Assembly (NCBI RefSeq): GCF_011100465.1
Contig: NZ_CP049740.1
Span: forward strand, 2,224,001-2,288,000
DNA length: 64,000 nt
Direction of reading: 5' to 3'
Source: Jeotgalibaca arthritidis
GTDB taxonomy: Bacteria > Bacillota > Bacilli > Lactobacillales > Aerococcaceae
Below are positions 8,567-48,137 of the stretch, piece by piece. Numbering within the stretch: position 1 is the stretch's first letter; each line of letters starts with the position of its first letter. The notes under the pieces were generated by a model. The model was not told where the DNA came from. It did not search any database and worked only from the letters and a program-made list of their open reading frames with translations. A program made the translations under genes and the position numbers.

Positions 8567-8679
8567 GATTTTATACCTACCTTTTAGTCTTTAGCTCATT
8601 CCATTTTATCAAAGATTCCAGTTATTACCAACAATGAATGCAAAATTACAAAAAACTTAGGAAAGAGCCTTTCTATAAG

Positions 8680-8697
8680 AAAAGCGGACAAGTCCGC
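8680..8697 (-). terminator. Small perfect hairpin with T-tract upstream of uppS
   Basis: GCGGAC (8684-8689) pairs perfectly with GTCCGC (8692-8697) across a 2-nt loop. On the minus strand it is followed by TTTTCTT. It closes the structured block at 8701-8833 on the uppS side and would end a transcript crossing that block. Confidence 0.55.
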
Positions 8698-8700
8698 CTT

Positions 8701-8833
8701 GGCCTATGAAAAAATAGGAAATTTGACCCTGAATTGTCAGGAGACTTCACGCTTCAGCGGGTTAGTCGAATGATATGCGTTAGCGAGCAGCGAAGCGCGC
8801 AATGGGGCAAATTTATCTTTTTTTCACTAGGTC
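8701..8833. repeat. Long imperfect inverted repeat, possible structured RNA or miniature element
   Basis: The stretch 8701-8730 is complementary with a few mismatches to 8804-8833 (CCTATGAAAAAATAGGAAAT against ATTTATCTTTTTTTCACTAGG). The interior contains further pairing partners (ACGCTTCAGCG near 8749 with CAGCGAAGCG near 8788). The whole could fold into one hairpin of about 130 nt. No ORF or protein-coding signal is seen. It sits in the 351-bp frr-uppS gap, bounded by terminators at 8680-8697 and 8885-8909. Whether it is an RNA gene, a repeat element or a leader cannot be told from one copy. Confidence 0.5.
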
Positions 8834-8884
8834 AGGACTTGGGAGCTAGACATTGATGGCTGAACTTATAATCCCCTAGTCTAT

Positions 8885-8909
8885 AAAAAAACCCAGAGCA
8901 AGCTCTGGG
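8885..8909 (-). terminator. Intrinsic terminator after frr
   Basis: A perfect 8-bp stem, CCCAGAGC with GCTCTGGG (8892-8899 / 8902-8909), has a 2-nt loop and is followed on the minus strand by seven T. It is 9 bp beyond the frr stop and ends the pyrH-frr transcript. Confidence 0.93.
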
Positions 8910-31400: not shown

Positions 31401-32210
31401 ATGGAAAATCATCACGTAAATTTCTTTGTTATTTCCGATTCAGTCGGTGAAACGGCTCGAAAAGTATTGAACGCAGTACTATCTCAGTTCCCTGATGTGG
31501 AAACTGTTATTCACCAATTCCCCTTTGTCAGAAAGGAAACTGAGCTAGAGAACATTTTTATTCAAGCAAAAGAAAAAGAAGCTGTTATTATCCATACACT
31601 GGTTACTAACAACCTAAGCAGTTTTACAGAAGCCTATTGCAAGGAAAACGAGATTCGTTGTTATGACGTTTTAAAAGACCTTGTATCAGGTGTTTCGGAA
31701 ATTACCAATCAAAGTCCCATTAAACGTGCGGGTGCCTCCCACCAGTTAGATGATGAGTATTTTAACCGGATTAGCGCTATTGAATTCGCTGTTAAGTACG
31801 ATGATGGCAAAGATCCAAAGGGGTTGCTAGAAGCTGATTTAGTCTTATTAGGTATTTCAAGAACATCTAAAACACCATTATCCATGTTTCTTGCTAATAA
31901 AAATATTCGCGTCGCTAACTTACCCATTTTGCCTGAAGCCCAGATTCCTGATGAATTATGGGAAGTTAATCCAAAGAAAATTGTTGGCTTAACCAATGAT
32001 ATTGAAACGCTCGTTAATTTTAGAAAAGAGCGTATGATAGCTTACGGTTTATCAGAAGAAACGATTTATTCTAATATTGACCGTGTGAAGAAAGAGATTG
32101 CTTTTGCTGACGAACTCTATGAGAAACTCGATTGTTATATTATTAATGTAGCTAAGCGATCGATTGAAGAAACAACAGAGATTATTATTAAAAATGTTTT
32201 AAATAAATAA
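31401..32210 (+). CDS. Pyruvate,phosphate dikinase regulatory protein (DUF299 bifunctional kinase/phosphorylase)
   Basis: A 269-residue protein of the DUF299 (PpsR / YqfL) family. It phosphorylates with ADP, and dephosphorylates, pyruvate phosphate dikinase or PEP synthase to switch them off and on. The N-terminus FFVISDSVGETARKVLNA and the P-loop-like GISRTSKTPLSM (about 151-162) are diagnostic. The ATG has GAGGTG upstream. Its target enzyme is not in this window. It is transcribed away from the Fur-like gene. Confidence 0.93.
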   Translation: MENHHVNFFVISDSVGETARKVLNAVLSQFPDVETVIHQFPFVRKETELENIFIQAKEKEAVIIHTLVTNNLSSFTEAYCKENEIRCYDVLKDLVSGVSEITNQSPIKRAGASHQLDDEYFNRISAIEFAVKYDDGKDPKGLLEADLVLLGISRTSKTPLSMFLANKNIRVANLPILPEAQIPDELWEVNPKKIVGLTNDIETLVNFRKERMIAYGLSEETIYSNIDRVKKEIAFADELYEKLDCYIINVAKRSIEETTEIIIKNVLNK

Positions 32211-32242
32211 AGAGTGCGAAAAAATTAGTCGTCTATATTTTA

Positions 32243-32270
32243 GGGCTGGGGTGATTCCCCAGCCCTTTTT
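32243..32270 (+). terminator. Terminator after the PPDK regulator gene
   Basis: A perfect 9-bp GC-rich stem GGGCTGGGG/CCCCAGCCC with a 5-nt loop is followed by five T. Confidence 0.93.
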
Positions 32271-32277
32271 GTCGAGA

Positions 32278-32315
32278 TGTAAGATACAGACTAAAAATAT
32301 CAGCTGTATCTTACA
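32278..32315. repeat. GATACAG inverted repeat, copy 1
   Basis: TGTAAGATACAG (32278-32289) is a perfect inverted repeat of CTGTATCTTACA (32304-32315), with a 14-nt spacer. It is the first of three tandem related hairpins between convergent genes. Confidence 0.85.
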
Positions 32316-32330
32316 TTCAAGAGCCTAAAC

Positions 32331-32367
32331 GTAAGATACAGACTGTTCGAAGCATCCTGTATCGTAC
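32331..32367. repeat. GATACAG inverted repeat, copy 2
   Basis: GTAAGATACAG (32331-32341) pairs with CTGTATCGTAC (32357-32367) with one mismatch. It shares its core with copies 1, 3 and 4. Confidence 0.8.
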
Positions 32368-32381
32368 AATTTAAGATAAAA

Positions 32382-32421
32382 GTGTACGATACAGCTTCAA
32401 TAATTGAGCTGTATCGCACAC
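32382..32421. repeat. GATACAG inverted repeat, copy 3
   Basis: GTGTACGATACAGCT (32382-32396) pairs with AGCTGTATCGCACAC (32407-32421) with one mismatch and a 10-nt spacer. No T-tract follows, so it is not an ordinary terminator. Confidence 0.85.
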
Positions 32422-32450: not shown

Positions 32451-33344
32451 TTATTGGTTGATAATATCGTCCAGTAAGTTTGGATTGAAGCCTTGCTTTC
32501 TAAACATATCAATTTCAAAGCGATACGGCGGCTGCTTATTCTTTTTATCTTCACCTACGTAAGGTGTTTCTAAAATTTTTGGTAAATCCATTAATTGAGG
32601 GTGATGAACAATATGATTGAGTGCGTCAAAACCAATATAGCCATGGCCGATATTGGCATGGCGGTCCTTTTTAGCACCTTGCTCATTTTTAGAATCGTTG
32701 ACATGAATCACTTTCAAGCGATCTAAGCCAATAATGCGATCAAATTCTTCTAAAACACCATCAAAGTCATTACGAATAGCATAGCCTGCGTCATGTGTGT
32801 GACAAGTGTCCAACGTCACTGATAATTTTTCATTAAAGGTCACACCATTAATGATTTGTGCTAACTCTTCAAAGGTTCTCCCAATCTCTGTTCCTTTTCC
32901 TGCCATTGTTTCTAAAGCAATTTGAGCCGTCTGATTGCGTTCTAAAACCTCATTTAAGCCTTTTATTATCTGTGCAATACCTGCATCAGCACCTGCTCCA
33001 ACGTGAGCACCTGGATGCATGGTAATTTGACTAGCTCCTAAAGCTTGCGCTCGCACGATTTCTTCTCGTAAAAAGGCTGTCGCAAATTCGAAATGGTCAG
33101 GCTTAGTCGTATTAGCCAAATTAATAATATAAGGCGCATGAACAACAATATCGCCCATTTGATAATCGCTCATTAACGATTGCGCAGCTGGGATATTCAT
33201 CTCATCTATGGCTTTCCGTCTCGTGTTTTGTGGTGCTCCCGTATATATCATAAAGGTATTCGATCCATAAGAATGAGCCTCTTCAACGGCCCCAACCATC
33301 ATTTTCTTCCCTGACATTGATACATGTGATCCGATTTTTAGCAT
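32451..33344 (-). CDS. nfo: Endonuclease IV (AP endonuclease)
   Basis: A 297-residue TIM-barrel zinc enzyme that cuts abasic sites in base-excision repair. The motifs [14 protein letters not shown] at the start, [22 protein letters not shown] and [22 protein letters not shown] supply the metal ligands. The ATG at 33344 has GGGAG upstream; 18 upstream codons were discarded because they run through the aspS terminator. Downstream lie the GATACAG repeats. Confidence 0.95.
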
Positions 33345-33359
33345 ATGTTTCTCCCTTCT

Positions 33360-33388
33360 AAAAAACAGGTTGGAGGCATCCCCAACCT
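33360..33388 (-). terminator. Terminator between aspS and nfo
   Basis: A perfect 8-bp stem CAGGTTGG/CCAACCTG (33365-33372 / 33381-33388) is followed on the minus strand by five T. It lies 10 bp after the aspS stop and only 16 bp before the nfo start. Confidence 0.8.
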
Positions 33389-33397
33389 GTTTGGTCA

Positions 33398-35164
33398 TTA
33401 ATCTTCTACTGTTAAACGTAAGTTTAGTTCTTGCAATTGTGCGTCGCTAACTTCTCCTGGAGCTTTAGTCATCGCATCGTATGCTTTACCATTTTTAGGG
33501 AAAGCAATAACTTCACGAATGTTATTTTCACCAGCTAATAACATAACTAAACGGTCTAACCCAAGTGCGATACCGCCGTGTGGTGGGAAGCCATAGTCGA
33601 ATGCTTCTAATAAGAAACCAAATTCTGCTTCTGCTTGCTCTGGTGTAAATCCTAAAGCAGCAAACATTTTCTCTTGAACCTCACGTGTATAAATACGTAG
33701 CGATCCGCCACCGATTTCGTAACCATTGAGAACAATATCATAAGCTTGAGCGCGAACAGCAGCTGGATTATCAGCTAATAGCGCAACATCCTCTTCTTTT
33801 GGCTGCGTGAATGGATGATGTAGGGCAACATAACGTTTCGCATCTTCATCATACTCAAGTAATGGCCAGTCAACTACCCAGAGGAAGTTAAACTTACTTT
33901 CGTCAATCATATTGAACTCACGACCAAATTTCAGACGCAACTCGCCTAATGATTGTGCTACGACTTCTTTTTTATCTGCAACAAACATCAGTAAGTCGCC
34001 TGGTTCAGCATCCATAGCTGCGATTAATTGATCAGCATCGTCTGCAAAGAATTTAGCAACAGCTCCGTTAAGGCCTTCTTCGGTTACTTTAACCCATGCT
34101 AGACCTTTCGCACCAAATTGTTTGATGTAGTCTGTTAAGCCATCCATATCTTTACGTGAATATGAGTCAGCTTTTCCTTTCAAGTTTAGACCTTTCACTT
34201 GCCCACCATTAGCTAATGCTTGTTTAAAGACATTAAATGATGTTTCTTGAGCAAAAGCTTCTAAGTCAATAAGTTCCAAAGCAAAACGCGTATCTGGTTT
34301 ATCAGATCCAAAACGATTCATTGCCTCATCATAAGTCATTCTTGGGAACGGTACTGGAATATCAAGACCAATCGTTTCACGAACTACTTTTTGAAGCATT
34401 TCTTCTGTCATAGTTTGAATGTCTTCAGCTGATAGGAAGCTTGTCTCTAAGTCAACTTGGGTAAATTCAGGTTGACGGTCACCACGTAAGTCCTCGTCAC
34501 GGAAGCAGCGAACGATTTGGTAATAGCGGTCAATACCAGCGCCCATTAACAATTGTTTGAACAATTGTGGTGATTGTGGCAAGGCATAGAATGCTCCTGG
34601 GTGAACACGAGATGGTACAACATAGTCACGTGCCCCTTCAGGTGTTGATTTTGTTAGATAAGGTGTTTCAACGTCCATAAATCCTTCATTATCTAAGTAC
34701 TGACGAATTGAACGTGTTGTTTGATGACGCAATTTCAAGTTATTTAGCATTTTTTCTTTACGTAAATCGATAAAACGATATTTCATCCGCAATTCATCTG
34801 CAACTGCATTGTCATCGTCAATATAAAACGGCGGTGTTTTTGCTTTAGCAAGAACCGTTGCTTGGCTAACTTCTAATTCAACTGTACCTGTTTTAATATT
34901 AGGGTTCACTTGATCTTCTTCACGTTTAACAACTGTTCCTTTTACTTCCAAGATGTATTCGCTACGAACGCCCTCTGCTAATTCAAACAAAGCAGCGTCG
35001 TGTTCGTGGTTGAATACAATTTGCAAAACACCTTCGCGGTCGCGCAGATGAATAAAAATTAATCCACCTAGATCTCGACGGCGATTCACCCATCCTTTAA
35101 CGACAACCTCTTGTCCTACATATTCTTCTGTTATCAGACCACAATATTGGGTTCTTTTCTCCAT
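33398..35164 (-). CDS. aspS: Aspartyl-tRNA synthetase
   Basis: A 588-residue class II synthetase of the bacterial type. It has an N-terminal anticodon-binding OB-fold ([25 protein letters not shown]) and a catalytic core with [12 protein letters not shown] and [20 protein letters not shown]. The bacteria-specific GAD insertion (about 300-420) and the C-terminal motif 3 [13 protein letters not shown] follow. It is downstream of hisS with a 22-bp gap and is presumably controlled by the same T-box. Confidence 0.97.
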
Positions 35165-47641: not shown

Positions 47642-47679
47642 TGTACGATACAGCCTTTTTTTTAAAGCTGTATCGTACA
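47642..47679. repeat. GATACAG inverted repeat, copy 4
   Basis: TGTACGATACAGC (47642-47654) is a perfect inverted repeat of GCTGTATCGTACA (47667-47679), around a 12-nt T-rich spacer. It has the same core as the three tandem copies at 32278-32421. It again lies between convergent genes. Confidence 0.88.
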
Positions 47680-47688
47680 CGAGCACAC

Positions 47689-47724
47689 AAAAAACTGCCG
47701 GACTTCAAGTTCCGGCAGTTTTTA
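47689..47724. terminator. Bidirectional terminator before the RNase H-like gene end
   Basis: A perfect 9-bp stem ACTGCCGGA/TCCGGCAGT (47694-47702 / 47711-47719) has six A before it and T-rich sequence after it. Confidence 0.9.
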
Positions 47725-48117
47725 TTTAGAATAAAGGGCTTGTTTAGCTAATTCGTGCGCCCCTCTATTTTCTTTTTCACTAATCCATTTTAAATGAAAA
47801 TTTGAAAACTGTTGAAGAAGAGTGAATAGATCTTCTAGCAAATCTTTATATTTATCGTTAGATGTATAGTGCTTATCAATAGCATCAACTAACATCTTAC
47901 TATCCGAGTGGCAAAGAATCAGTTGTTCAGTTAATTCGTTTTCAATCAGCAGTTCTAAACTCTTTATTAGAGCAAGATATTCTGCTTGATGATTATCAAC
48001 ATAATTGGCTAGTTTCTGACCAATTTGTGTTTGCCTACCATTATTGATTAATAAAATACCAATTGATGAACATTGCTTTTTAGGATTGGAGCCACCATCA
48101 ATAAATAATCGTATCAC
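47722..48117 (-). CDS. RNase H-like (RNase HI family) protein
   Basis: A 131-residue RNase H-fold protein. The acidic catalytic positions are visible as Asp7 (FIDGGSN), Glu46 (NHQAEYLAL) and Asp72 (HSDSKMLVD). The fourth site reads NRGAHELA, with His in place of the usual Asp, a variant common in the reverse-transcriptase-like RNase H subgroup. Small proteins of this type in Bacillus (YpdQ/YpeP group) have little or unproven RNase H activity. The GTG at 48117 was chosen because GAGGTG precedes it by nine bases; another GTG four codons earlier overlaps that site. Confidence 0.8.
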   Translation of the reverse strand: MIRLFIDGGSNPKKQCSSIGILLINNGRQTQIGQKLANYVDNHQAEYLALIKSLELLIENELTEQLILCHSDSKMLVDAIDKHYTSNDKYKDLLEDLFTLLQQFSNFHLKWISEKENRGAHELAKQALYSK

Positions 48118-48137
48118 TTCAGTGACCACCTCTTATC

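Follow-up and report, generated by a model that had tools for sequence, protein, structure and literature searches.

The genome of Jeotgalibaca arthritidis contains a dispersed family of modular palindromic repeats that occupies the 3′ ends of genes and mostly lies behind predicted transcription terminators. We consider it reasonably probable that the family is a lineage-specific, non-autonomous repeat, similar to REP/BIME or EFAR elements, that settles just past terminators. An initial annotation of the window, i.e., the whole 64,000-nucleotide stretch analyzed here, had described a perfect 13-bp inverted repeat at 47.6 kb as a fourth copy of a palindrome present near 32.3 kb. The inverted repeat and the shared core are exactly as claimed, and the copy does belong to the same family, but it is not merely the fourth: among the model matches listed, at least 35 loci carry such units.

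A hairpin unit and a three-unit array in the window

The unit at 47.6 kb (Table 1) folds strongly as RNA, with −19.6 kcal/mol on the + strand and −23.0 kcal/mol on the − strand (z scores of −8.9 and −11.0). It matches the family covariance model with 51 bits (E ~2e-10 for the window), the model having been built from the same family including this copy. The unit lies 12 nt from the stem end of the predicted terminator of an RNase H-like gene; on its left side, a simple-rule terminator search found none. The junction is convergent, as the initial annotation stated, provided that the open reading frame (ORF) on the + strand is a gene. This ORF, situated between methyltransferase and RNase H genes, is by eye absent from the junction in two congeners (G051 and G052). 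The nearest named relatives of the neighboring methyltransferase are found in Trichococcus palustris (76%) and Atopococcus tabaci (74%). On the + strand, no T-run follows the hairpin; on the − strand, the stem is followed by four Ts, so that the unit might serve as a back-up terminator of the RNase H gene. Probably, the element landed behind the RNase H terminator with little effect on either gene.

The 12-bp core of this palindrome is common to all three units of the array near 32.3 kb. Here, the first arm begins 11 nt past the stem of the terminator of the left-hand kinase/pyrophosphorylase gene, and the same simple-rule search detected no terminator on the right side.

Table 1. Repeat units and neighboring features in the window (positions are those of the window).
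Feature	Position	Strand	Description
Kinase/pyrophosphorylase-family gene	31401–32210	+	PF03618; left neighbor of array
Intrinsic terminator of kinase/pyrophosphorylase gene	32242–32270	+	AGGGCTGGGG..CCCCAGCCCT + T-run
Array unit 1	32278–32315		covariance model match
Array unit 2 (middle)	32330–32368		covariance model match; 15-nt spacer
Array unit 3	32383–32420		covariance model match
AP endonuclease family 2 gene	32451–33398	−	PF01261; right neighbor of array
ORF, up to 166 aa	47071–47571	+	no Pfam match; upstream neighbor of 47.6-kb unit
Single hairpin unit	47642–47679		left arm TGTACGATACAGC (47642–47654), right arm GCTGTATCGTACA (47667–47679), 12-nt loop
Two-way intrinsic-terminator-like hairpin of RNase H-like gene	47690–47723		13-bp perfect inverted repeat; fold −19.7 kcal/mol
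RNase H-like gene	47722–48129	−	PF13456/PF00075; convergent neighbor of 47.6-kb unit

Genome-wide abundance and unit architecture

We scanned the genome, a single 2.35-Mb contig, for the arm sequence TGTAMGATACAG, using the pattern read backwards as a control. Exact matches number 54 (27 on each strand) versus none on either strand for the control, and with one mismatch there are 117 (57 + 60) versus 16 (11 + 5). Chance is thus rejected as the origin of the recurrence, in line with what the initial annotation had supposed. At two mismatches, 400 matches (207 + 193) compare with 258 (123 + 135) in the control, i.e., chance dominates at that level. A covariance model, R1, derived from units picked by hand in J. 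arthritidis and in its closest congener, G051, returned 130 both-strand matches in the former at E up to 5. At least 63 units at at least 35 loci are present among these listed matches; the 35 loci exclude 758480, where one arm stands alone, and 1567182, where a different repeat interrupts the unit.

A unit of 38 or 39 bp comprises a 12-nt arm, TGTAMGATACAG, a variable spacer of 14–15 nt, and the complementary arm. Units are solitary or form two- and three-unit arrays with 14-nt linkers, and many loci hold one unit only. The majority of exact 12-mers face a partner head to head across 14 nt, or across 15 nt in the middle one of three units, and arms in arrays occupy positions 0, 26, 52, 79, 105, and 131. 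Arm starts are 26 or 27 apart in 53 of 55 units (56 tabulated rows minus 758480, whose partner is spurious), with spacings of 23–30 allowed, which amounts to a nearly fixed 26-bp lattice; two units of looser spacing (885802 and 1882631) are known from the model search. Over nine arrays of exactly 143 bp, picked for their equal length and including four closely related ones, identity reaches 89% in arms versus 49% in spacers, so that a function of the arms remains conceivable. By reading the listed copies, outer arms were found to be TGTAMGATACAG-like or NNGTCGATACAG; the form GTCGATACAG accounts for 4 of 14 distal and 1 of 22 proximal outer arms. Each arm has a dyad of its own in its core, TGTA-NNN-TACA.

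Arms also vary in concert. In 32 chosen units, matched changes on both sides occur in 18 cells versus 6.3 in shuffles, and partner arms resemble each other more closely than arms randomly re-paired within arrays (mean difference 1.25 vs. 1.74, p 0.0002). The mean difference is, however, 1.4 across a linker and 1.25 within a unit (minus seven cassette copies, 1.0 vs. 1.57). Since arms match their linker neighbors about as well as their partners, we reject the idea that covariation concerns the unit hairpin alone, and it is no proof of selection on that hairpin. Rfam searches of the window and eight loci gave no match at the elements.

A second, unrelated repeat lies at 8675–8891 of the window and exists in a long form of ~217 bp and a short form of ~166 bp. 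It also occurs elsewhere in the genome (504295, 834720, 1172857, 1316265, 1567198, 1585406, 1741563, and 1882408) and is mostly 92–99% identical to G051 copies of the same form. A GCGGAC/GTCCGC hairpin marks one end, terminator T-runs often adjoin it, and no Rfam match was found in the sources searched. At one locus (L030, 1501–1745; ~1567182–1567426 of the genome), the long form resides inside the loop of a hairpin unit and splits TGTAAGATACAG..CTGTATCGACA; the unit is therefore probably the older of the two there.

Placement behind genes and terminators

Simple ORF calling around the 35 loci among the matches listed yielded 18 convergent, 15 tandem, and no divergent gene contexts, with 2 loci unassigned. 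This agrees with the proposal that the family is dispersed and located at gene 3′ ends, but not with confinement to convergent intergenic regions, which the initial annotation had put forward as a check. Thirty-three of these 35 loci overlap no predicted ORF of at least 80 aa and two overlap one, while a single exact 12-mer out of 54 falls inside an ORF of at least 100 aa, near its predicted start.

Between gene and element, a terminator is predicted for 45 of the 53 element-facing 3′ ends, whereas a control with A and T swapped gave 9 of 53. The first arm follows the terminator stem by 10–13 nt in 23 of the 45 cases, with a preferred offset of ~11–12 nt; terminators were called by a simple rule that takes the best-scoring rather than the nearest candidate per side and misses some close weak ones, e.g., at 325388. 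These 23 stems belong to 18 sequence-similarity groups, and the offset was thus not simply copied together with the terminator. Eight loci (203030, 1104359, 1173627, 1695749, 1773502, 1783323, 2175540, and 2256278) share units plus parts of the flanking terminators, which indicates that the repeated block can extend well past the units. The composite of one of these cassette loci matches several unlinked loci with 88–97% identity over ~100–190 bp. That the copies might stop or protect transcripts, as previously suggested, is disfavored as their main role by their position behind separate terminators.

Distribution and comparison with congeners

Within the genus, the covariance model detects the family in two of six genomes, namely J. 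arthritidis and G051, the latter with 38 both-strand matches at E up to 5. At this threshold, G052, G053, and G054 gave 3, 1, and 1 matches, with a best E above 1 in each, and G050 gave none; accordingly, with a cutoff at E of 1, the four congeners other than G051 are without a match. In three other congeners, scanning 120–140 kb each for hairpins de novo found no comparable arm family, but the same scan of G051 (419 kb) recovered the arms only weakly among its top words and is thus not sensitive. In the bacterial family, a strict pair pattern hits 1 of 76 genomes and a relaxed one 4 of 76, i.e., J. arthritidis, G051, and two genomes of another genus. An order-wide model search at E 0.001, with stricter filters that lose weak matches, found 4 of 345 Lactobacillales genomes; the other sampled genomes of the order had no match besides one sucrose-gene locus common to two genomes of another genus. 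This sucrose-hydrolase region (L185, L177, L178, and L182, with L178 also covering the neighboring permease region) contains a 38-bp relative of the palindrome and is highly identical between two genera, which suggests transfer along with the genes.

No match to the family was found in plasmids or phages. The strict paired pattern had 0 matches in a genome contig collection that may omit J. arthritidis or near genomes, and a relaxed palindrome pattern hit six viral contigs, in one of which the palindrome is 38 nt long, while the other five have a shorter one of 36 nt. The literature, at the level of titles and abstract beginnings, offered no report of such repeats in this group, which does not prove their absence.

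The family in G051 is a sister family, most of whose arms differ from those of J. arthritidis. They are of the AAAGTACAG type (AGTAAAGTACAG, TTTAAAGTACAG, and variants) at nine of 12 inspected loci and closer to TGTANNNTACAG at three. The period is 50 bp in three of the G051 arrays, and helical phasing is therefore rejected as a general law. Simple ORF calling classed the 12 loci as 3 convergent, 8 tandem, and 0 divergent, with 1 overlapping a predicted ORF start; two of the tandem loci also overlap a small predicted ORF. The offset looks looser in this species, with a predicted terminator 10–16 nt away on one or the other side at 5 of 12 loci.

We compared 12 junctions with G051 and dropped one (own 1890.5 kb) that holds an isolated near-match arm only. 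At ten of the 11 element-bearing junctions, the corresponding place in G051 is free of an element; at the eleventh (505.6 kb of the J. arthritidis genome), G051 carries a three-unit array of its own type next to the same gene. No clean empty site was seen in G051, and most junctions differ by more than the element. Visual inspection of the sequences flanking 17 arrays revealed no evident target-site duplications.

Two transposase families, IS1182-type and Y1, were sought as candidate mobilizing enzymes. In the J. arthritidis genome, no IS1182-type (C-terminal) domain was found, and the single Y1 transposase match is broken by an internal stop. No unit lies in the flanks retrieved for this broken gene, nor are there units at E up to 1 in the flanks of 23 transposase loci from the genus.

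Origin and possible function of the family

We infer that copies spread as a non-autonomous, passive mobile element. The target would be the terminator, either as a hairpin plus T-run or as a site of stalled transcription, and, since this place is past the mRNA end, copies would be tolerated; the mobilizing enzyme may since have been lost from the genome. A passive mobile repeat accounts for the dispersal, the cassette copies, and the species restriction. That arms are conserved while spacers drift is unusual for passively decaying elements and hints at constraint on the arms. It is conceivable, if rather unlikely, that a host or element-encoded factor reads the arms at RNA polymerase release, which would make the family an insulator or integration system anchored at terminators, with a constant 12/14/12 geometry but a recognition sequence that differs from one sister species to the other.

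The conservation of arms over spacers is also compatible with a protein-based role, in which arms are putative sites of a DNA-binding protein and the alternating 26-bp lattice (~2.5 helical turns) builds a complex ahead of terminator-stalled polymerase, i.e., a roadblock or insulator between genes. The narrow spacing despite diverged spacers, the dyad in each arm core, and a 12/14/12 unit kept between species while arms differ fit this model, but the 50-bp period in three G051 arrays does not keep the helical phase and many loci have one unit only; we regard it as unlikely, albeit arguable. A function in RNA, with hairpins acting as back-up terminators or as barriers that shield the 3′ ends of read-through transcripts, would be in keeping with the strong folding, the compensatory arm changes, the closeness of partner arms, the location at gene 3′ ends, and the four Ts behind the 47.6-kb stem. 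Little RNA should include the units, however, given the predicted terminators ahead of them at 45 of 53 facing ends, and covariation that extends to linker neighbors does not single out the unit hairpin; we give this model a poor chance. Replication template-switching in a pre-existing quasi-palindrome could have made the arrays and kept them symmetric, with neither mobility nor function involved, and would explain why neighboring arms are alike in either register. As it leaves unexplained both the same arm at 35 unlinked loci (among the matches listed) and the preferred terminator offset, we consider it very improbable as the main process.

With spread as a passive mobile repeat as the preferred reading, our analysis describes a clearly delimited family of palindromic repeats from a part of the Lactobacillales close to Trichococcus. 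That one offset is preferred although most of the terminators are unrelated to each other suggests that small mobile DNA lands at terminators or at polymerase stalled on them.

Comparison with known systems

DNA uptake sequences occur as many single copies, inside genes too. We reject this class for the present family, as 1 of 54 exact 12-mers lies within an ORF of at least 100 aa and most are paired. MITEs are marked by terminal inverted repeats shared with a resident IS and by target-site duplications; the comparison with resident IS covered the IS1182-type and Y1 families, and the 17 array flanks inspected by eye showed no obvious duplication.

Insertion at related targets is known from larger elements. 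Group IIC introns, according to PMC4424553, insert at intrinsic terminator motifs; in contrast, the elements described here are far smaller (38–170 bp of units), and neither the window nor the eight loci have a group II intron match in Rfam. IS1272 and IS1182-type transposition targets inverted repeats, as stated in PMC5678879, but no IS1182-type C-terminal domain was found in the present genome and the loci show no sign of stem replacement.

Closer likenesses are found among small palindromic repeats. BIMEs form alternating mosaics with linkers. REPs, in the description given in PMC3733652, are short, mostly intergenic palindromes that frequently form inverted dimers and separate genes in unidirectional or convergent orientation. 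The family shares with REP/BIMEs the alternating orientation with linkers and the location between convergent or unidirectional genes, but differs in that the outer arms of the listed copies show no GTAG/CGTC tag, in that the one RAYT/Y1-type gene found is broken and has no unit in its flanks, and in its 12-bp stems with 14–15-nt loops. EFAR, reported by Venditti et al. in 2007, is said to have a variable modular length and to settle in stem-loop targets. For the Enterococcus faecalis repeat Efa-1, PMC2267715 describes adjacent stem-loops within small intergenic repeats of a genome that likewise belongs to the Lactobacillales. By description rather than by sequence, the J. arthritidis family resembles EFAR/Efa-1 as small intergenic stem-loop repeats of Lactobacillales; EFAR insertion reportedly replaces the stem-loop and leaves stem remnants at the ends, whereas the terminators adjoining the present units look intact, with the unit apparently placed behind them and not in their stead.
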